A stretch of 64,000 bases of DNA from Methylomonas montana (lineage in GTDB: Bacteria; Pseudomonadota; Gammaproteobacteria; Methylococcales; Methylomonadaceae): NCBI RefSeq assembly GCF_030490285.1, contig NZ_CP129884.1, forward strand, positions 1 through 64,000. The letters run 5' to 3'. Shown here in pieces: positions 50,216 through 63,214 of this stretch. The translations under genes were made by a program, and so were the position numbers. The stretch's first letter is position 1. Every line of letters starts with the position of its first letter. The notes under the pieces are model-generated. The model was not told the DNA's origin. It saw nothing but the letters and a program-made list of their open reading frames with translations, and did no database searches.

Positions 50216-51338
<1,123 letters not shown>

Positions 51339-51358: not shown

Positions 51359-52228
51359 TTAGATCCAATAAGCCAGCACGATCCCGATAAACACCGCCAG
51401 CCCGAACCAGTTGTTATTCAAAAAAGCCTTGAAGCACTTGGGTTTGTCGAAATGGAAAATCAGCGTTTGCTGGTAAATTGACAGCCCGGCAGCGACGGCC
51501 AAGCCAGCGTAATACGGCCAGCTTAAATATTGCATGAAGCCAACCGTGATCAACAGACCCAGAATGATAACTTGCAGGCCGGCGGTAATTTCCCGCACCC
51601 GCTTGCCGAACAGAATCGCCGTGGATTTGACGCCGATTTTCAAATCGTCGTCGATATCCACCATCGCATACATGGTGTCGTAGACCAGCGCCCACAGCAG
51701 CACCGCCAGATACAGAATCCAGCCGACTAAGGGGATTTCGTTGGTTTGCGCGGCAAACGCCATCGGCACCGCAAAACCGAACGCCGCGCCCAAATAAGCC
51801 TGCGGCAGATGGGTAAAACGTTTCATGAACGGGTAACTGGCCGCCAGAAACGCACCGATAAACGACAAGCCGATGGTGTACCAATTCATCAGCAACACCA
51901 ATCCGAACGCAGTCAGACACAGTACGGCAAACACAATCAATGCTTCCTTAGGCTTAACCTTGCCGGCGGCGATGGGCCGCAACTTGGTTCGGTCGACATG
52001 CGGATCGAAATCCTTGTCGGCATAATCGTTGATCACGCAGCCGGCGGCGCGCATCAACACCACGCCCAACACGAAAACCGTCAACACCAGCGGGTCGGGT
52101 TTGCCATCGCCGGCAATCCACAAGGCCCACAGCGTCGGCCACAGCAATATGAAGATGCCGATAGGTTTATCGAAGCGGGCCAGGAGCCAGTATTGGTGGA
52201 GGCGGTCTTTTATGTTAATTGATGGCAT
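51359..52228 (-). CDS. ubiA: 4-hydroxybenzoate polyprenyltransferase
   Basis: UbiA prenylates 4-hydroxybenzoate, the first membrane step of ubiquinone synthesis. The 289-residue product is an integral membrane protein with about nine TM helices and the two Asp-rich motifs: NDYADKDFD at 67-75, and DTMYAMVDIDDD near 184-195, which coordinate the Mg-pyrophosphate. Length and motifs are normal. The IS110 element sits just beyond its stop codon, within an extragenic repeat, leaving the gene intact. Confidence 0.96.
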   Translation of the reverse strand: MPSINIKDRLHQYWLLARFDKPIGIFILLWPTLWALWIAGDGKPDPLVLTVFVLGVVLMRAAGCVINDYADKDFDPHVDRTKLRPIAAGKVKPKEALIVFAVLCLTAFGLVLLMNWYTIGLSFIGAFLAASYPFMKRFTHLPQAYLGAAFGFAVPMAFAAQTNEIPLVGWILYLAVLLWALVYDTMYAMVDIDDDLKIGVKSTAILFGKRVREITAGLQVIILGLLITVGFMQYLSWPYYAGLAVAAGLSIYQQTLIFHFDKPKCFKAFLNNNWFGLAVFIGIVLAYWI

Positions 52229-52380
52229 GTATTAAATCTTACTTACCGGTATTTGGATGGATAACAATGACAGTTAAAATAACAATTTTGTTGGCATTTC
52301 TGGATCATTGAATTAAACTTTACTTAAGCTGTGAACAAAATTCGGCCCCGTGCCGTGAGGGTCTGTAAAGGCTCCTATAT

Positions 52381-53271
52381 TCACGGCTTTTTCTTTTTCT
52401 GCTTCCCTTGCTCGAAGCGGGTTTCCAGTGTCAAAGGATGGATCTTGTTAAAAAACGTACCTCGTTCCGGGCCAAAATCCAGATCATGAATCTCAGCCAT
52501 TTGTGGCCATAGTAAGTTCAAATAGCGATCCTCTCTCGGCAGCTCCAAACCTGTTTCAGAATGTAAACGTACCTCGTAAATACGCTGCAGAGCCCATAGA
52601 AAATAGTCCACTGCTTGTAGACAGGCTTCGGTTCCGGGGTCCGAGACAGTAATATTCCAAACATCCGTGCCACCACGGGAAAAACCAAAATTGTCTTCGA
52701 AGTCTCGTTCAGCATGTTCGATGGCCTGGGTTAGCGCATGATTTCTATCCTTATGTCCACGCCGAGCAATACAGAGATGGTAAGCATCGGCAAGGCGGTG
52801 AAACTTTGAAAACAACGAACGAACCAACGAATCGTAAAGCGCATTAGGCTGATAGCGATAAAGGCTATCTGATAAGCGTTTGGCCGTTTCCCGCTCAAGT
52901 AAAGCTTGCTTGTCACATGCTACTGCATGAAAACGCAGTGAAGCGCCTTCGTTACGCAGTAGGCTGTAAACCCGATACCGTACCTCTGGTAAATCGTCTT
53001 TAGCATGAAAGGCGTGAGCTGTTTTTTTGCGCTCAGGCTTAAAGGATTCCACACCGGCGAAATAAGGATCGGCGAGTAGCTCCGTCTGCAAAGCCTTCAG
53101 TTTATCCGCGAGTAGCTGAGGATTTTCTACCTCAAGTTTGCCCATGATGAAATAGCGTGAGCATCCCTGTGTTCCAACTATCGGTTTGCCATGGCGCCCG
53201 CCGAACAGGGTTGGGTCGCCTGCTTCATCCACGAAAATAGACAAAACATCGGTTTCAATGGCTTGTGTCAT
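52381..53271 (-). CDS. DUF3800 protein
   Basis: A 296-residue DUF3800 protein. The characteristic N-terminal motif is IFVDEAGDPTLFGG (Asp15, Glu16), and another conserved acidic stretch, DPGTEACLQAVDYFLWALQR, lies near residue 210-230. The pattern of acidic residues on an RNase H-like fold suggests a metal-dependent nuclease, though activity is unproven. DUF3800 genes are common in defence islands. It starts in a 4-bp ATGA overlap with the methyltransferase gene, so the two are co-translated. This is the last gene of a three-gene minus-strand unit. Confidence 0.88.
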   Translation of the reverse strand: MTQAIETDVLSIFVDEAGDPTLFGGRHGKPIVGTQGCSRYFIMGKLEVENPQLLADKLKALQTELLADPYFAGVESFKPERKKTAHAFHAKDDLPEVRYRVYSLLRNEGASLRFHAVACDKQALLERETAKRLSDSLYRYQPNALYDSLVRSLFSKFHRLADAYHLCIARRGHKDRNHALTQAIEHAERDFEDNFGFSRGGTDVWNITVSDPGTEACLQAVDYFLWALQRIYEVRLHSETGLELPREDRYLNLLWPQMAEIHDLDFGPERGTFFNKIHPLTLETRFEQGKQKKKKP

Positions 53272-56200
53272 GCACTTTCCTGGGAGCTATCGGCATGGAA
53301 TGCGTCCGGCCAGCCGCCATGCTCATCAATTACGGCATCGATTTCATTCATCAACCGAATGGTTTCATGCAGGGAAACGATGATTTTTTGGTAATGAACT
53401 ATATCTTCCTCACTCAAAACACGACCTTTGCGGTCTTTTAGCCATTTTTCGCAAACCTTGTAACAACCAATATGAAAACTCCAAACTGCTTCGGGTACGT
53501 TTTCAAAACACTGGTTAGAGTTAATCCATATTGCACCGCCTTTATAGATGGGTTTTTTGGATACGCTGTTATCACCAAAACCTGAGTATTGGGTGATGAA
53601 ATGACTGACCTTATTTGATTCAAGTAAATGCAGATAAACTAGCTCATCTCCGAGTTTGGAAAGTTTTTGGAACACATCAATCGAACCAGGCAAGGGGATT
53701 CGAGGAAAATCAATTTTTAGAAATTCGGAGTAACGACTACGATAACCGGGACTAAAGAGTACTGCATAAATATATTTGAATATGTTTTCTGCACTCAGTT
53801 CAGTAGCGGACTTTTCTGGTTGCCATTCAGCAAAGGAATGACTCAGAGTCGTCCGCAGTGCACTGATAAAGTTGCCTGCAAGATTTGAATATCGCCTTGG
53901 TAAGTCAAGCAGATGGTTGTCTTCAAAATTATCTTTATTTTCTGGATTGCTATAGAGCCAAAGAGGGAAGATATAAGTACGCTCCTTTGTTTTGTTTGAA
54001 ACAAAAGAATCATCAACAACTGTATTTGCCAGAAAAGCATGGTGCCAAGGTAGTTGAGCCAACTGGCGGCAACTACATAAAGCGAGGTTATCGCCCGGCA
54101 GCATATGGCTACTTACTCTAAGTCTCCTATGAACTGCCACATTGGAGTCAAAAATCGTTATTCTTGAAGTAAATGGTCGGTAATCAATTGTTACCAAATG
54201 TTTTTTCCATTCGCCTTCTTTTAACTCACGTTTGGCTTTTTCGTAATTCCATTGGCTTTGGGTGCAAAGTTGCCAGTATTCTCGTGCGTCGGATTCGCTA
54301 CTTGTATTTAAAAATTGTTCTATTTTAAATATTGCTTCCTCTCTGCTCCAGGAAATAGCAAATTGGTCATGAGTGGTAACAACACCTGGTGCAGGATCAC
54401 CGTTTACGGCAAAAATTTTTGGCAAAGACCAACAGGCATTATATTCAACCAGAGCATGGGTATTTTGGGGACGAAACAGATGGAAAGGTTCTACAGGAGT
54501 TAGAATTTCCCAGTGCGGTGTTGGAGTATCAATATTACCCAAATTGCGATACTTAGCTTCACGTTTACCCCAGATGTCCTGGTAACGAACATCAATTTTA
54601 CTATCCGTCATTCTTAAGAAAAGGCCAATAGAAGTTCCTTGGGTAATATCGAAGACGTTTTCGTCTTTATCACCTTCAGGAGTTTTTTCCATTTTTTTAC
54701 TATTTCCATGTAAATCAACAATGCGAATTTTGGGAAAAGATGCCAATAGATGGCAACGCATTCCTTTGAAAGTTGGGTTATCCAGATATGAGTGATCGGT
54801 AATAAAGCCTAGAATACCAAGGCCAGACTCTGAAATACGCATTTCAGCTAGGCGGATAAATTTAACGTAATCGTTTTGAAGCCATTTACCTTGACCGGGC
54901 TTTTGTAGTTCTGGGTAGCCCCGTTTGTAATCGTGGATACGCTCAACGATTTCAAGTGCTTGATTATTGATCGAATGTCCCGAATAGGGAGGATTGCCAA
55001 TAACCAGTGTAAACCGTTGCTCACGTTTAACCTCATTGACCGCTTTTGACTCATGAGCCAACGCCGGAACAAACTCTTCTATTTCTGTTTGTTTTTTATC
55101 ACTTGCGGGTTCGAGTGCATTGGTTAAGAAAACTCGTGCACGTTCGTCGCTGCCGAAACGATAGCCGGTTTCAAATAGCTTCAGGCCAATTTTCATATGG
55201 GCGATGGCATAAGGAGCCATCATTAACTCATAGCCATACAAGCGAGGTAATAAATGCTTGGGTATGTAGTCATTCCAAGCCGCTTCGCGTTGTCTTTCAT
55301 TGAGCCCTTGTTTGCGCCATTTATCGTTTAGGGTACGGAAAATCAGATCAATTACTTCGACCAGAAAGGTTGCAGTGCCTGTAGCTGGGTCGAGAATGAC
55401 GACGAAAGGCGAGTCAGGATCGGTATCTTCAGGGATTTGTATTGCTGGATTAACATGCTTCATTTCCGCCCAGGTACTGGTGGAAGCCAATCCTTCCGCC
55501 AATCCGAATTCTGTTTGCAACAATTCATGCACACTGCGAACGATATACGACACCACTGGTTGCGGGGTATAGAACACGCCACGCTGTACTTTTAGCTTTT
55601 TGTTGTAGGCTGTCAGGAAATGCTCGTAAAAATGTATGACGGGATCTTCACCACGGGTGCGGTTGCCAAAATCCCGCAAGATGGCAGGTAAGTCAGTTTC
55701 TGCACCACGCAGTAGCTCTACGACATCCTGAATCCCCAGTTCGTCAAAGTCGATGCCGCCTTTGCGCCCTCCCACTTTAAGAAAGGTTTGCAGCATTTCT
55801 TTAAGGAATGGATTGGTGACCGGCACCATATCGGTGATATTTTCTGCCAGCAACACGGTGTCGTACCGCCCACCGCTTTTATCTGTCCGGGAAATTGCGG
55901 CGGTTAGCAATCCATAGGTAATAGTTTGAGCATAGGTATCGGCAAAGCTTTCTTCGGTAAGATCGTGAATCAGCGAGGTTTGAAAGGCTTTATGTAAAGT
56001 TCGCAGTGGGCCATTTTCCGCTTCTGCGGCCAACATAGTTTGGGCACGGTCGCGGATATTGCGTGCGAGTTGCGCCAGCACTTCGGCTAAGGCGTCGGCA
56101 GTGCGGATGATATGGCCAATACGATGGCGAAAGGGTTGCTGCCATTGTTTTCGCCAAGTAGTTTGATCATTTGGTTTATCCGGCCAACGTAAATGATCAT

Positions 56201-56702
56201 GCAGAACCTTATCCAGATGGTTCAATTTCAAGGGTGTGTCCGCACCATCCCAGCCCAGCACTCGCAAACTGGGTAAATCTCCGGGCTCTTGATGAAAGTG
56301 AGCAAAAGCAATTTCGCGTTGGTCGCTGTTTTCTTCGCCAAAGGCAGAAATGAATAACAAATCCTGTGTATTCCAAACTGCAGATGTACTTTTATTGGCG
56401 GAGGCACGCTTTTTAACCACCAAGTGACTGAGGATGCGGCGCAGTACCACCACAGGCAGTTTTTTGCTCTCAAACTCAACAAAGAAAATCCCCCAGGGCT
56501 GGCCGCTATATAGAGGACGTAGTTGGTGAATCTGGCTTATCTTAGCGGCATCGCTTGCTTTTATGCCTAGTTCCTCGGGCGAATATTCGAAAGTCAACTC
56601 TTCAAAGCCGTATTCCTGTAATGGCCAATCAAGTTGGTCTTCGAGATAACGGATTAAATCCTCGAAGGTACGAATGGCGCGAAGCTCAACGGTGTTGTGC
56701 AT
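53268..56702 (-). CDS. Large N6-adenine DNA methyltransferase / type ISP-like restriction-modification protein
   Basis: A 1144-residue protein. Residues about 370-640 form an N6-adenine methyltransferase: QRGVFYTPQPVVSYIVRSV at 374, SAM motif I DPATGTATFL at 438-447 (Ala where most relatives have Gly) and catalytic motif IV NPPY at about 570-573. The N-terminal 370 residues and the C-terminal 500 residues resemble the target-recognition and structural parts of type IIG/ISP enzymes. A full helicase motor is absent here; it is supplied by the preceding gene. A segment IFFVEFESKK near residue 75 might be a nuclease fragment but I do not claim it. Composition is AT-richer than the flanking ubiA and hldE genes, a sign of transfer. 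Confidence 0.85.
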   Translation of the reverse strand: MHNTVELRAIRTFEDLIRYLEDQLDWPLQEYGFEELTFEYSPEELGIKASDAAKISQIHQLRPLYSGQPWGIFFVEFESKKLPVVVLRRILSHLVVKKRASANKSTSAVWNTQDLLFISAFGEENSDQREIAFAHFHQEPGDLPSLRVLGWDGADTPLKLNHLDKVLHDHLRWPDKPNDQTTWRKQWQQPFRHRIGHIIRTADALAEVLAQLARNIRDRAQTMLAAEAENGPLRTLHKAFQTSLIHDLTEESFADTYAQTITYGLLTAAISRTDKSGGRYDTVLLAENITDMVPVTNPFLKEMLQTFLKVGGRKGGIDFDELGIQDVVELLRGAETDLPAILRDFGNRTRGEDPVIHFYEHFLTAYNKKLKVQRGVFYTPQPVVSYIVRSVHELLQTEFGLAEGLASTSTWAEMKHVNPAIQIPEDTDPDSPFVVILDPATGTATFLVEVIDLIFRTLNDKWRKQGLNERQREAAWNDYIPKHLLPRLYGYELMMAPYAIAHMKIGLKLFETGYRFGSDERARVFLTNALEPASDKKQTEIEEFVPALAHESKAVNEVKREQRFTLVIGNPPYSGHSINNQALEIVERIHDYKRGYPELQKPGQGKWLQNDYVKFIRLAEMRISESGLGILGFITDHSYLDNPTFKGMRCHLLASFPKIRIVDLHGNSKKMEKTPEGDKDENVFDITQGTSIGLFLRMTDSKIDVRYQDIWGKREAKYRNLGNIDTPTPHWEILTPVEPFHLFRPQNTHALVEYNACWSLPKIFAVNGDPAPGVVTTHDQFAISWSREEAIFKIEQFLNTSSESDAREYWQLCTQSQWNYEKAKRELKEGEWKKHLVTIDYRPFTSRITIFDSNVAVHRRLRVSSHMLPGDNLALCSCRQLAQLPWHHAFLANTVVDDSFVSNKTKERTYIFPLWLYSNPENKDNFEDNHLLDLPRRYSNLAGNFISALRTTLSHSFAEWQPEKSATELSAENIFKYIYAVLFSPGYRSRYSEFLKIDFPRIPLPGSIDVFQKLSKLGDELVYLHLLESNKVSHFITQYSGFGDNSVSKKPIYKGGAIWINSNQCFENVPEAVWSFHIGCYKVCEKWLKDRKGRVLSEEDIVHYQKIIVSLHETIRLMNEIDAVIDEHGGWPDAFHADSSQESA

Positions 56703-56751
56703 GGTGCAGTCCTAAATTTGCTTAGTATTATTGATTAGATTTGGGCAGAGG

Positions 56752-59700
56752 TTAATTCAGCTCTAGCCAGCATTTTAAAATGGGTGAAACACCCAACGGC
56801 GCTTGCAATGGCTTTAAGTAATCAACGGTAAGTTGCTTTTCCACTTTCTTACGCAACTCGGAAAGGTCTTTATGAGCAATAACGCAGTTCCTTGGCGTAT
56901 GTGGTTCCGAACGAATAAAACGGGCAATGGCTCCGGGTTCGGTTAATACGCGTTTTTGCTCTAAATCGTAGCAAACCCAGATGGTGAGACCAGCAGTGTC
57001 CGACCAACGCAAATCACCCGAATCCGTTTCTACCAATAACGAATCCGGTCTGGGAATCCGATAACAAAAAAATACGGCACGGGCGTTTAATTGTGGCACG
57101 GCTTTGCCAGAGAAAATTTTCAAGGGCATACGCGAAACTGTTGACGCAAGTTCGGGTTGATCCTTTATAAGATTGTTATATTCCAATCTGAGTTGTTCGG
57201 AATCCGATAGATTACCGTCGCATTGTTCGTTGAGTTCTTTGATTGGATCGAATTCATCATCTGGGGTCAATAGTTTGCGGCCTTCAACGCCGAGAGTGCG
57301 AGAAATAACCAAGGTTTTGCTGGTTACTCGCTGGAACAAACGTAACAACTCGTCCAGTTCATCGGGCGGTAGAAAATTCCAATAAATAATATGACCACGT
57401 TGGCCCTTTAATTCCGGATGATCTGCAAGCAATCTTGCTTCGGTATCAGGATTCATACGTCGATCTACACGGCCAATACGTTGCATCAAGCGGACTGGAT
57501 TCCAGTGTAAGTCGTAATTGATTAAACGAGTTGCGTCCTGAAGGTTTAAACCTTCTGACAATACATCGGTGGTAATTAGAATGCGAATTTCTGCTTTGCC
57601 CTCCGCCTCGAGTTCAACAGAACTGGATTCGTTGTAATAGGGGGAGAAACGACGAATAACGTCACTTCGCTGTTTTTGCGAACTACTGCCGTCTATGCGG
57701 TGAATGCCGTTGAGTTTCGCATTGATTAGCTCTTGTTCGAGATAGCGTGCAGTATCAGAAAACTCGGTAAATAGAATGACTTTTTGATTCTTTAATGCTT
57801 TATCGGTTTTGAGCAGTTTAATAAGTGCCTTGAGTTTATCGTCTCGGGCTGGCTTGACTTCTGACACCAAGCTGAGAAATTCCGCAAGCTGGTTCATATC
57901 GTCCAAGGTATCGTCCATGATAGAACTGATGTCGAACTCTTCGGCGCTGAGCTTTTCAACTGAATTCAAAATGTCTTCTGTCAGAAAATCCTCAACTTGA
58001 TCATCGTCAGGTTCATCCGGCCACAATTCAAGCTGGTGGGCTTGGACATAACCGATGATATCGGCATGTTTAATTTGCCAGCGTTCTAACCTACGTTTGT
58101 TATGGGATGATTCCGCGTGGACGGAAACCCAAGCAAAGAGTTTTTGTAGTAAACGCCAGCAGGAGCCTTCAAATGCTTTGGACGAACTCTCAAACCGCTT
58201 AAGAAAAAGAGTTCTAATCAGTGTTACAACTTGTTTTTGCCGACCTTCATCGAATGACTTAAATGCAGGATCGTCTTTATCACCCTTCCAATAAGCCAAT
58301 GGATAATAAATGCTGAGAACAAACAGTGGTTTATCTTTACTAAATGCTTTGGCCACGCTATCCAGCAACTTTCCGTAGGTGACTTTGAGGTTGTAGGCAG
58401 CCAACTTTGGGGCTTGTCGTTCCGGAAATAAGGCTTCACTTGCCCCGTGTTGCTTTTGGCTTGCTTTAACATAAGCGCGGCTACGCTGGACAACTAGTGA
58501 GTCAAAAACAATATCGCTTCTTAGCGTGTTTTCCGCGTCTAGGATTTCAGGACCGAACTCTAGTTCTAAAGGTGCATTTGTCGATTTGCCCCCAAGGATA
58601 CGCTTTTCTAGCTGTATGAAGTGAGAGCGTAAACTGTGAATGCCCAATGTTGGAGCAAAGTACTGTTCATTACCGTTAGTAAATAATTCAATCATTCTTC
58701 GAAAATCGTGGATTGAGTTATTGACCGGGGTTGCAGTAAGGAAAAAAACTTGCTTGGGACGATCACCCGAATGTAGATACTCTTGCAGTTTTCGATAGCG
58801 GGATGGCTCTTTGTCACCTTCGCCCTTGATACCAGCGTTTCGGAAGTGATGGGCTTCATCAATGATAACAACGTCGGCATCTTTCAGGGTCATGGCTAAA
58901 TCTCTGGGCCATTTGCCCTTACGTTGTAAGTCTGTGTGATTGAACAACAAAAAGTTGACGAAACCGCTGTTTAGATTGGGGAGATGACGATGAATTACTC
59001 GTTCCCATACATCTTCACGAGCCGCTTTAGGCGCGAATAACACCACGCGCTTTCCCTCTCTAGCTATCATGCGTTCTAGCAACATTAATCCGACGTAGGT
59101 TTTACCTAAACCTACACCATCACATAGAAATGCACCGTTGTTGGTATTAGCGATTTGGACTAGATTTCGATAGGCATCTTGTTGATATTTATCTAGTAAT
59201 TTAAATATTTTGGATTCCTGGGTATCCCATAAATCAGGCGTTAATTCACGTCCTTTCAAAAACTCGTCGAGAGCCTTGAACCAAATCTCAAATGGCGTGT
59301 AATCTCGGGTATGCCTTTGTAAGGTTTGTAAAATATCTGGAGTAATGTCTTCGGCTTCTTCCCAATGTCTTTCATACCAGTCTTGTAGTATTCCAACTGG
59401 GGAGCCAGTGACCTGAATATTTAGCTCAACATTGTCTGTCAGTCCGGGGTAAGTAAAGTTTGATGATCCGACCAACGCAAACGAACCGACAACAGCAGCG
59501 CGACCATGTGTGATGTAAGCTTTGGCGTGAAATTTGTCTTTTCGATAGACGCGACATTGAATTTTGCCACTGTGAATAGCATCAACAATTGCTGGGACGC
59601 CTTGTAGAAAGTCATTTTTGATCTTTTCAGTTTCAACGCTTAAATCAAGGCGTTCATGGATTTTTTTTAAGCCCTCTGTGAATGCACGTTTTGTCCGGTA

Positions 59701-59904
59701 CGAAACTTCGTCACCCATTAAGATACGAATCTTATCAACCGATTGCCATGCGTCGTTCAAGCTAAGTAACGCGCCAATTTCGAAATAGCCGGTTGCAATG
59801 TCCACCGACATGGACAATTGACACCATTCTGAAAGGTAGGAGCAAACTTTCCAGTCGGAATCGCTGTTATCGACAATGAAAAGTTCAGATGGGGAGGTCG
59901 CCAT
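56752..59904 (-). CDS. Phospholipase D-like domain fused to an SNF2 helicase
   Basis: A 1050-residue protein. Residues about 20-175 form a phospholipase D-like domain with HAK at 126-128 and GSSNF at 146-150, the HxK and Asn-containing halves of such nuclease sites. An SNF2/superfamily 2 motor follows: Walker A GVGLGKT at 263-269, DEAH at 349-352 (VVIIDEAHHF), LTATP near 388, and motif VI QRIGRVDRRM at 808-817. This is a nuclease-motor fusion in one chain, like DISARM DrmD (SNF2) joined to a DrmC-like PLD. It begins the minus-strand defence-like unit; a 49-bp gap separates it from the methyltransferase. Confidence 0.9.
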   Translation of the reverse strand: MATSPSELFIVDNSDSDWKVCSYLSEWCQLSMSVDIATGYFEIGALLSLNDAWQSVDKIRILMGDEVSYRTKRAFTEGLKKIHERLDLSVETEKIKNDFLQGVPAIVDAIHSGKIQCRVYRKDKFHAKAYITHGRAAVVGSFALVGSSNFTYPGLTDNVELNIQVTGSPVGILQDWYERHWEEAEDITPDILQTLQRHTRDYTPFEIWFKALDEFLKGRELTPDLWDTQESKIFKLLDKYQQDAYRNLVQIANTNNGAFLCDGVGLGKTYVGLMLLERMIAREGKRVVLFAPKAAREDVWERVIHRHLPNLNSGFVNFLLFNHTDLQRKGKWPRDLAMTLKDADVVIIDEAHHFRNAGIKGEGDKEPSRYRKLQEYLHSGDRPKQVFFLTATPVNNSIHDFRRMIELFTNGNEQYFAPTLGIHSLRSHFIQLEKRILGGKSTNAPLELEFGPEILDAENTLRSDIVFDSLVVQRSRAYVKASQKQHGASEALFPERQAPKLAAYNLKVTYGKLLDSVAKAFSKDKPLFVLSIYYPLAYWKGDKDDPAFKSFDEGRQKQVVTLIRTLFLKRFESSSKAFEGSCWRLLQKLFAWVSVHAESSHNKRRLERWQIKHADIIGYVQAHQLELWPDEPDDDQVEDFLTEDILNSVEKLSAEEFDISSIMDDTLDDMNQLAEFLSLVSEVKPARDDKLKALIKLLKTDKALKNQKVILFTEFSDTARYLEQELINAKLNGIHRIDGSSSQKQRSDVIRRFSPYYNESSSVELEAEGKAEIRILITTDVLSEGLNLQDATRLINYDLHWNPVRLMQRIGRVDRRMNPDTEARLLADHPELKGQRGHIIYWNFLPPDELDELLRLFQRVTSKTLVISRTLGVEGRKLLTPDDEFDPIKELNEQCDGNLSDSEQLRLEYNNLIKDQPELASTVSRMPLKIFSGKAVPQLNARAVFFCYRIPRPDSLLVETDSGDLRWSDTAGLTIWVCYDLEQKRVLTEPGAIARFIRSEPHTPRNCVIAHKDLSELRKKVEKQLTVDYLKPLQAPLGVSPILKCWLELN

Positions 59905-59964
59905 AGGTTGAGTTAAACGGTTACAAATTTGCGATTAAATGAATCTATTAAAAGAGGGTATAAC

Positions 59965-61395
59965 CTACGCTTGTGTCTTGTCTTTAATCGCCCGAATAAT
60001 CCCTGTCGTCGAATGCCCTTCGATAAACGACAAAATCTTCACCTCGCCGCCATTCGCCAGCACGCTGTCGTGGCCGGCGATGCTGGTGATGTCGGTGTAG
60101 TCGCCGCCCTTGACCAGGATGTCCGGCAATAATTGGTCGATGACTTCTTTAGGCGTGTCTTCCTCGAACGGCACCACCCAATCCACGCATTCCAGCGCCG
60201 CCAGCATCTCCATGCGATGATCCAGCTTGTTGACCGGGCGCTCCGGGCCTTTCAAGCGTTGCACGGAGGCATCGCTGTTGACCAACACCACCAAGCGGTC
60301 GCCCAGAGTTTTGGCTTGTTGCAGGTAGCGGACGTGGCCGGGATGCAGGATGTCAAAGCAGCCGTTGGTGGCGACGATTTTTTCGCCGTTTTGTTTGGCG
60401 GCGGCGCGCTCTATCAGTAATTCCGGCAAGGTGCAGACGCCTTTGTGATGCGCGCGTGGGCCTTGCAATGCAGCGGCCAACTCGTCGGTGTTGACGGTGG
60501 CGGTGCCCATCTTGCCGACCACGATGCCGGCGCCGATATTGGCCAGTTCCGTGGCTTCGGCCAGCGGTTTTTTCGCCGCCAGGCTGGCCGCCAGTACCGA
60601 GATTACCGTGTCGCCGGCGCCGGTGACGTCGAATACTTCGCGGGCGTGGGTCGGCAGATGCAAAGGTTCTTGGTTCTTGCTGAGCAGCGTCATGCCTTGT
60701 TCGCCGCGGGTCACCAATAAGGCCTCCAACTCCAGCTCGGCGAGCAGCTTGGTGCCCCGTTCGACGATTTGCTGTTGATCGGCGCAACGGCCGACCACTG
60801 CCTCAAATTCGCTGAGATTGGGGGTGATCAGAGTCGCCTGCTTGTAGACTGTAAAATCGCTGCCCTTGGGATCGACCAGCACCGGTTTCTTCAGTTGTTT
60901 CGCCAGCGCGATGAATTGTTGCACCTGGTTCAGGGTGCCTTTGCCGTAATCGGACAGCACGACGACTTGCGATTGCATCATCTCGGCATGATACAGATGC
61001 AACAGCGGGGCACTGTCGATTTGCTGAAAACCGTCTTCGAAATCCAGCCGGATCAACTGCTGATGCCGGCTCATTACCCGCAGCTTGGTGATGGTCGGGA
61101 AATTGGGCACCGGTTGAAACAGGCACAGCACGCCGGCCTTTTTCAGAATGTCTTCCAGCGCCACCGCCGCCTGGTCCTCGCCGGTGAAACCCAGCAAAGA
61201 CACTTTGGCGCCCAGCGCGGCGATATTCAAGGCCACGTTACCGGCGCCGCCGGCGCGTTGTTCGTCCTGCTTGACGTGGACCACCGGCACCGGCGCTTCC
61301 GGCGAAATACGCGAGGTGGGGCCGTGCCAATAGCGGTCCAGCATCAGGTCGCCGACCACTAGCACGCGGGCTGTCGAATAGTTGGGTAATTGCAT
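59965..61395 (-). CDS. hldE: Bifunctional heptose-7-phosphate kinase / heptose-1-phosphate adenylyltransferase
   Basis: HldE makes ADP-D-glycero-beta-D-manno-heptose for the LPS inner core. The 476-residue product is two fused enzymes. Residues 1-320 are a PfkB-type kinase with [13 protein letters not shown] at the start and DVTGAGDTV (GAGD at 259-262). Residues 335-476 are a nucleotidyltransferase with [15 protein letters not shown] (HPGH at 351-354) and a later SSTGII-type STTGIIRAI motif. It indicates a Gram-negative envelope with heptose-containing LPS. It is monocistronic and divergent from arsC. Confidence 0.97.
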
Positions 61396-62425: not shown

Positions 62426-63214
62426 TCAGGGTTCAAACACGCCCAGCGCTCTAAGACAGGACTTACCTAGATCGATGCGCTTGGCCGCATCGGCCGCCTG
62501 GACGATGTCGATATTCAACGCAAAACTGTATAGACGGCTGCCATTCGTCACCCATCCCACCCACCAGCCCACACCGGGGTTGGGGGCGTTTAACCAGCCG
62601 GTTTTGCCGTACAGGGTCCGGTCGCCGACTTGTTCCAGCTGAACGATCTCGCGGACTTTGGCCTGAACATCGGGAGGAAACGGTAACTCGTCCCGCGCCA
62701 GGCGGGCCAGAAAAGCGGTTTGTTCCACCGCGCTAATTTGCAACGGGCCCTCCAGCCAAAACCTGTCGACCGCATCGCCTAGTTCGGCGTTGCCGTATCC
62801 CATCGCAGTAACACCGTCGTGCATCCGCGCCAGACCAATGCGCCGGGCCAGTTCCTGATAAATCGGCACATTGGATATTTTGATGGCCTCGCGCAAGCCC
62901 ATGTCCCGCTCCCAGGTCTTGAGAAATTGCGGCTGGCCGCCGTAAGGCAGGATGTCGTCGACGCTGTCGACCGCGCCTACCGATAAGCCGATCAGGCTAT
63001 TGGCAATTTTGAACGTAGAAGCCGGGATAAAGCGCATCTCGGCGCGGCCCCGATCATGTCCGATCAAGCGCTGCGCATCGACGTCGTAGAACACGAAAGT
63101 GCCTTGTACGCCGGCCTCGCTGAACAGTTTGCCGAGCGCCGGATTGTCCTGCCAGTCGATGGCGTGAACGTGGCCGGCAAGCAATAGCATCACGGCCGCT
63201 ATAAGATGTTTCAT
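62426..63214 (-). CDS. Class D (OXA-type) beta-lactamase
   Basis: A 262-residue periplasmic serine beta-lactamase. The signal peptide ends near HVHA (about residue 18). All class D motifs are visible: catalytic Ser-x-x-Lys STFK at 66-69, S-x-V as SNV at 114-116, YGN at 140-142, FWLEG at 152-156 and KTG at 204-206. The active site is therefore complete and the enzyme should hydrolyse penicillins and oxacillin-type compounds. It is in a chromosomal context next to ordinary genes, with no integron or IS adjacent, so it is probably an intrinsic environmental OXA-type gene. It abuts the preceding VOC-family gene (1 bp apart). Confidence 0.94.
   Translation of the reverse strand: MKHLIAAVMLLLAGHVHAIDWQDNPALGKLFSEAGVQGTFVFYDVDAQRLIGHDRGRAEMRFIPASTFKIANSLIGLSVGAVDSVDDILPYGGQPQFLKTWERDMGLREAIKISNVPIYQELARRIGLARMHDGVTAMGYGNAELGDAVDRFWLEGPLQISAVEQTAFLARLARDELPFPPDVQAKVREIVQLEQVGDRTLYGKTGWLNAPNPGVGWWVGWVTNGSRLYSFALNIDIVQAADAAKRIDLGKSCLRALGVFEP

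Follow-up and report, generated by a model that had tools for sequence, protein, structure and literature searches.

The cassette and its recurring gene pair

The window analysed here, a whole stretch of 64,000 nucleotides from contig NZ_CP129884.1 of Methylomonas montana, carries a candidate cassette of three minus-strand genes between hldE (upstream) and ubiA (downstream). The first core gene (56752-59904) encodes a PLD-SNF2 helicase of 1050 amino acids, with Pfam matches to PLDc_2, ResIII/SNF2 and Helicase_C on one polypeptide. The second core gene (53268-56702) encodes an adenine methylase of 1144 amino acids with a target-recognition domain (TRD), matching N6_Mtase, Eco57I and Type_ISP_C. 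The third gene (52381-53271), an optional accessory, encodes a protein of 296 amino acids that matches Pfam DUF3800 and is a predicted RNase H-like nuclease. The helicase and methylase genes are 49 bp apart, while the methylase and DUF3800 genes overlap by 4 bp. A preliminary description of this DNA had given the same arrangement and the same identities; its coordinates and strand were exact, and the Pfam matches bore the three identities out.

Both parts of the helicase retain intact catalytic motifs. In the predicted PLD nuclease domain (residues 33-200; 59305-59808, minus strand), H126, K128, S147, N149 and E160 were identical in 33 of 33 homologs. The same was true, in the SNF2/SF2 motor (residues 230-870; 57295-59217, minus strand), of the Walker A K268, the DEAH box at residues 349-352 and the arginines R809, R812 and R815.

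Relatives were retrieved by helicase peptides alone, the methylase being unused, with one genome per species. In total, 80 loci or genome contigs, spread over at least 16 phyla, were kept, with helicases 50-86% identical to that of the window. Of these, 61 had 3.5 kb or more of sequence downstream and were considered testable. In every one of the 61, a methylase bearing the same N-terminal domain (N-domain) was found within 6 kb downstream of the helicase, mostly with little or no intergenic space. Because the pair recurs in all testable loci, the arrangement of these genes is not a matter of chance. The partner was a Type ISP-like methylase, as in the window, in 50 loci, and another large methylase, with Eco57I, MmeI_Mtase or TaqI_C-type domains, in the other 11. 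These 11 methylases have only about 190 N-terminal residues in common with the window methylase.

The cassette had been proposed as a three-gene system, to be recognized by the co-occurrence of its members in other genomes. The trio did recur, but only in a minority of loci, as the DUF3800 gene was present in 9 of the 61 and showed six changes on the helicase tree for 10 carriers. The core therefore consists of two genes, to which DUF3800 is an optional addition. Similar positions in other loci are filled by AAA_21, AAA+DUF4276, GmrSD or Schlafen-type genes; YhcG is also among the operon neighbours elsewhere.

Among 397 other genomes sampled from the phylum, the N-domain was detected in a single one, where it also adjoins the helicase; a search of 72,556 plasmids did not find it. 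Viral contigs queried with the methylase gave no match. A wider family of PLD-helicases, at about 27% identity, is common and occupies other multi-gene loci with methylases. For example, the multi-gene loci of plasmid PLD-SNF2 helicases of this kind (L170-L172) encode Eco57I-type methylases as well as other proteins. The N-domain profile had no match in the methylases beside these plasmid helicases, and a faint N-terminal resemblance was seen by eye.

Methylase modules and their exchange

In the methylase (all coordinates on the minus strand), the N-domain (residues 1-195; 56118-56702) is followed by a coupler-like region predicted to be helical (residues 196-430; 55413-56117), by the methyltransferase (MTase) catalytic domain (residues 431-700; 54603-55412) and by a hypervariable target-recognition region of low pairwise identity (residues 701-950; 53853-54602). 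The catalytic domain contains motif I (DPATGTAT, residues 438-445) and NPPY (residues 570-573), which were invariant or nearly so across 27 homologs. Residues 431-1120 represent the MTase and specificity part of Type ISP and Type IIG enzymes, the top matches in sequence (phmmer) and in fold (Foldseek) being LlaBIII, LlaGI and DrdV. The methylase matched Type_ISP_C (PF18135) at 252 bits (E 8.9e-75), and PADLOC scored it as REase_MTase_IIG at 684 bits. Single-chain relatives (L023-L030) were 34-39% identical to it across residues 191-1125, and in the five gammaproteobacterial ones that were read, a PD-(D/E)xK nuclease (motifs of the PDF..EAKD type) stands at the N-terminus and a motor is absent.

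The N-domain, which is common to two methylase families, occupies the place of that nuclease. It was itself considered as a nuclease, and this was rejected, since the PD-(D/E)xK motif was not seen and no Pfam or PHROGs family matched. AlphaFold predicted an alpha/beta structure with a predicted local distance difference test score (pLDDT) of 80. In the fold search, Foldseek against PDB gave no match at E<=0.001 and VIA-align gave Z scores of at most 3.8, which is weak evidence and does not show a new fold.

The only hypervariable region of the system is in the methylase. Among ISP-class methylases, mean pairwise identity over residues 701-950 was 25-30%, compared with 40-74% elsewhere. Likewise, the window proteins were 35-37% identical to those of loci L049 and L041 in the recognition region, as against 81-83% in the N-domain, 84-87% in the helicase motor and 84-88% in the helicase.

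Methylases have also been swapped beneath the helicase. On the helicase tree, methylase family showed 12 changes for 12 Eco57I-type loci, at least 10 of them forced by supported branches, and its scatter over the tree equalled that of shuffled labels. Fully supported sister pairs with unlike methylase families were L072/L083, L064/L067 and L056/L061.

The ubiA-hldE interval

The cassette had been described as AT-richer DNA between two housekeeping genes and near an IS110 element, which proved correct. Its GC content is 44.5%, compared with 51.9% in the rest of the window, where other 7.5-kb stretches span 46.4-58.2%. The borders are hldE (59965-61395, minus strand) and ubiA (51359-52228, minus strand), and an IS110-family transposase gene (50216-51304) lies on the far side of ubiA. 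A second, identical IS110 copy at genome positions 2512526-2513674 suggests recent movement of this element.

Variable content between ubiA and hldE in relatives, named as a check in the preliminary description, was looked for and found. At this site the cassette was present in none of 36 same-genus genomes. Twenty intervals were read (within L148-L167; the window interval is 52229-59964), of which three were nearly empty, with 8-24 bp (L164, L165 and L167), and most others held alternative cargo. One representative of each kind of cargo was scanned, and the remaining loci were assigned by visible sequence similarity. The cargo included DndC, DndD/PbeC-like and FtsK/DndE proteins (L149 and L150), NsnA/NsnB-type genes (L151-L153), HEC-01 (L157 and L161), HEC-06/GmrSD (L158 and L163) and a metallophosphatase-NACHT-LRR protein (L148). 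The ubiA-hldE interval is thus a genus-wide defence hotspot.

Some of this cargo deserves separate mention. The FtsK-family protein beside DndC and the DndD/PbeC-like protein (L149:2993-4489 and L150:2992-4488) has a weak DndE match near its N-terminus, and may be a fusion of DndE with FtsK in a compact locus of the phosphorothioate type. An open reading frame (ORF) of 422 amino acids, present as single-gene cargo in L154, L159 and L160 (e.g., L159:1589-2857), matched nothing in Pfam or PADLOC and is a candidate defence gene; an ORF of 445 amino acids (L155:2200-3537) likewise had no match.

Elsewhere, a relative of the system on a contig filed as viral (L033:123-7560) is directly preceded by Cas9-like and Cas1-like genes (judged by eye), a small ORF resembling Cas2 and a CRISPR array with about 59 repeats. 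This contig probably represents a defence island of a bacterium and not a virus. The M. montana genome is a single contig of 4.63 Mb, and its PmoA/AmoA-family gene indicates that the host is probably a methanotroph. No RNA elements, DUF3800 RNA motifs included, were found around the cassette, and promoter and terminator scans of the cassette performed no better than on shuffled sequence. An ORF at 62426-63214 of the window resembles a class D (OXA-type) beta-lactamase, as judged by eye only, without a family search.

Proposed mechanism and relation to known systems

We consider it probable, at roughly two chances in three, that the pair is a two-gene ATP-dependent defence of the restriction-modification (RM) type, resembling a Type ISP enzyme that has been divided between two subunits and fitted with a different nuclease. 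A restriction-like defence unit combining the PLD-motor fusion with a modification enzyme had been suggested before; the suggestion is supported here, and the unit is now placed in a variable defence locus.

We infer each biochemical step as follows. Through its variable recognition region, the methylase subunit would bind a specific site, which is probably asymmetric, and would methylate adenine in the host DNA. On unmethylated invading DNA, it would recruit the PLD-SNF2 subunit through the N-domain and coupler; the motor would then translocate, and a dimer of the PLD domains would cut the DNA, probably upon stalling or collision. The N-domain may serve as a common plug for differing methylase-specificity modules, which could therefore be exchanged under one conserved motor-nuclease. 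Where present, the DUF3800 protein might act as an optional back-up nuclease.

A more tentative proposal, to which we would give somewhat less than even odds, is that these loci form a separate RM class, in which interchangeable methylases of two families would give a single conserved PLD-SNF2 motor-nuclease its specificity, each joining it through a common, previously undescribed N-terminal dock. In the single chains of Type ISP, motor, nuclease and specificity are not freely exchangeable; in the present loci, they appear to have been separated in evolution and the joint between them standardised. If this is true, new specificities could be gained by methylase swap, and separate subunits would make it possible to test the rules that couple site recognition to a translocating nuclease. 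Annotation pipelines would need correction as well, as they score the methylase like an entire Type IIG or Type ISP enzyme though it has neither nuclease nor motor.

Some considerations weigh against the RM-type reading. The docking role proposed for the N-domain and coupler is drawn from co-variation and shared occurrence. Pairwise distances correlated with those of the helicase at r 0.57 for the N-domain, 0.50 for the coupler, 0.21 for the MTase core and 0.07 for the recognition region; a conserved dock with exchangeable specificity would give such a pattern, in which the first two track the helicase while the last two do so hardly or not at all, but these correlations are indicative rather than independent tests, because the loci are related by descent. 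Furthermore, cutting by the PLD domain is predicted from sequence, and a BREX-like block could operate without cleavage.

Such BREX/Pgl-like exclusion is the best of the alternatives, although we regard it as unlikely. Self would be marked by the methylase, and the PLD-SNF2 protein would either stop phage from replicating, with no cutting at sites, or be an effector set off by other cues. The nearest published architecture that we found is that of the BREX-related Type-2 systems in a 2026 survey, which have an HKD(PLD)-SNF2 fusion effector of the same kind alongside an N6-MTase (PMC12839542). However, those systems are centred on DUF499 and almost always include DUF3780, both of which are absent from the cassette. 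DUF499 (PF04465) had no match in the whole genome, whereas a control genome was positive, and membership of the BREX-related Type 2 group was accordingly rejected. A core of merely two genes and the invariance of the PLD residues also argue against exclusion of this type.

Less probable still is a true three-gene system, in which DUF3800 would be the essential effector (e.g., an abortive nuclease of the RNase H-like kind), with the RM-like pair as its sensor. An RNase H-like fold has been reported for DUF3800 (PMC10910872). In the window protein, whose Pfam score is 35.2 bits against a cut-off of 21, the putative catalytic acidic residues D15, E16, D19 and D222 are invariant across 10 homologs. 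The overlap with the methylase gene, the position of DUF3800 beside the methylase in six other loci and the finding of this subfamily in no other genome of the 398-genome phylum sample speak for the trio as well. Against it, 52 of the 61 loci with the pair have no DUF3800, and the gene has been repeatedly gained or lost. A role outside defence, as an epigenetic regulator or an orphan modification pair persisting as a selfish element, is very improbable: RM modules can behave selfishly, but here the nuclease and motor residues are invariant, the recognition region is hypervariable and the site is a hotspot with other defence cargo.

No model in PADLOC, NCBIfam or Pfam describes the helicase-methylase pair, and no description of it was found in the open-access literature (subscription journals were not covered). 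The earlier comparison with DISARM was correct in that DrmA and DrmB are absent and the PLD is fused to the motor, but incomplete, as the methylase is of another family, that of the Type ISP/IIG MTase-TRD, with an extra N-domain. The cassette shares with DISARM the functions of SNF2 helicase, PLD and methylase, and a weak similarity to DrmD (NCBIfam, 153.5 bits on the helicase against a cut-off of 610). The helicase matched DrmA only via its helicase domain, the methylase and DUF3800 matched no DrmA or DrmB model, and PADLOC returned for the helicase only a partial C3a139 HKD+Snf2 match. With the DrmD score far under the cut-off and no DrmA/DrmB in the three-gene cassette, DISARM membership was rejected.

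SauUSI, a Type IV enzyme whose nuclease belongs to the PLD family, resembles the window helicase in having nuclease and helicase-like translocase in one polypeptide. Driven by ATP, it shreds DNA as a nuclease-linked dimer (PMC7913695). Unlike the window system, it recognises methylated targets by its own TRD, without a methylase partner. Restriction by CglI involves a PLD nuclease and an SF2 ATPase, and fused PLD-ATPase homologs have been noted (PMC4267653). The window system likewise joins a PLD nuclease with an SF2 ATPase, but in CglI, NgoAVII and BceSIV these are on separate proteins, and cleavage is at a fixed distance from the site.

The Type IIG enzyme DrdV has the same MTase-TRD region, as do the single-chain relatives described above. 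Type IIG enzymes carry their own nuclease on that chain, as do the five relatives that were read, whereas the N-terminus of the window methylase is a different domain. With LlaGI and LlaBIII, enzymes of the Type ISP class, in which cleavage depends on translocation and takes place between head-to-head sites, the system shares a homologous MTase and specificity half, in sequence and in fold, and the helicase-like motor, coupler, MTase and recognition parts are all present. The known enzymes of this class consist of one chain that includes an Mrr-family nuclease, and in those of the LlaGI type the MTase-TRD finds unmodified sites, after which translocation takes place and cutting follows on collision (PMC4666363). 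In the window, by contrast, a separate second protein bears the motor together with a nuclease of the PLD type, and the methylase has a different N-domain. By analogy, the system would join parts precedented by LlaGI, SauUSI and CglI, and it looks less like a rearranged DISARM than like a Type ISP-like machine that has been split and re-armed.

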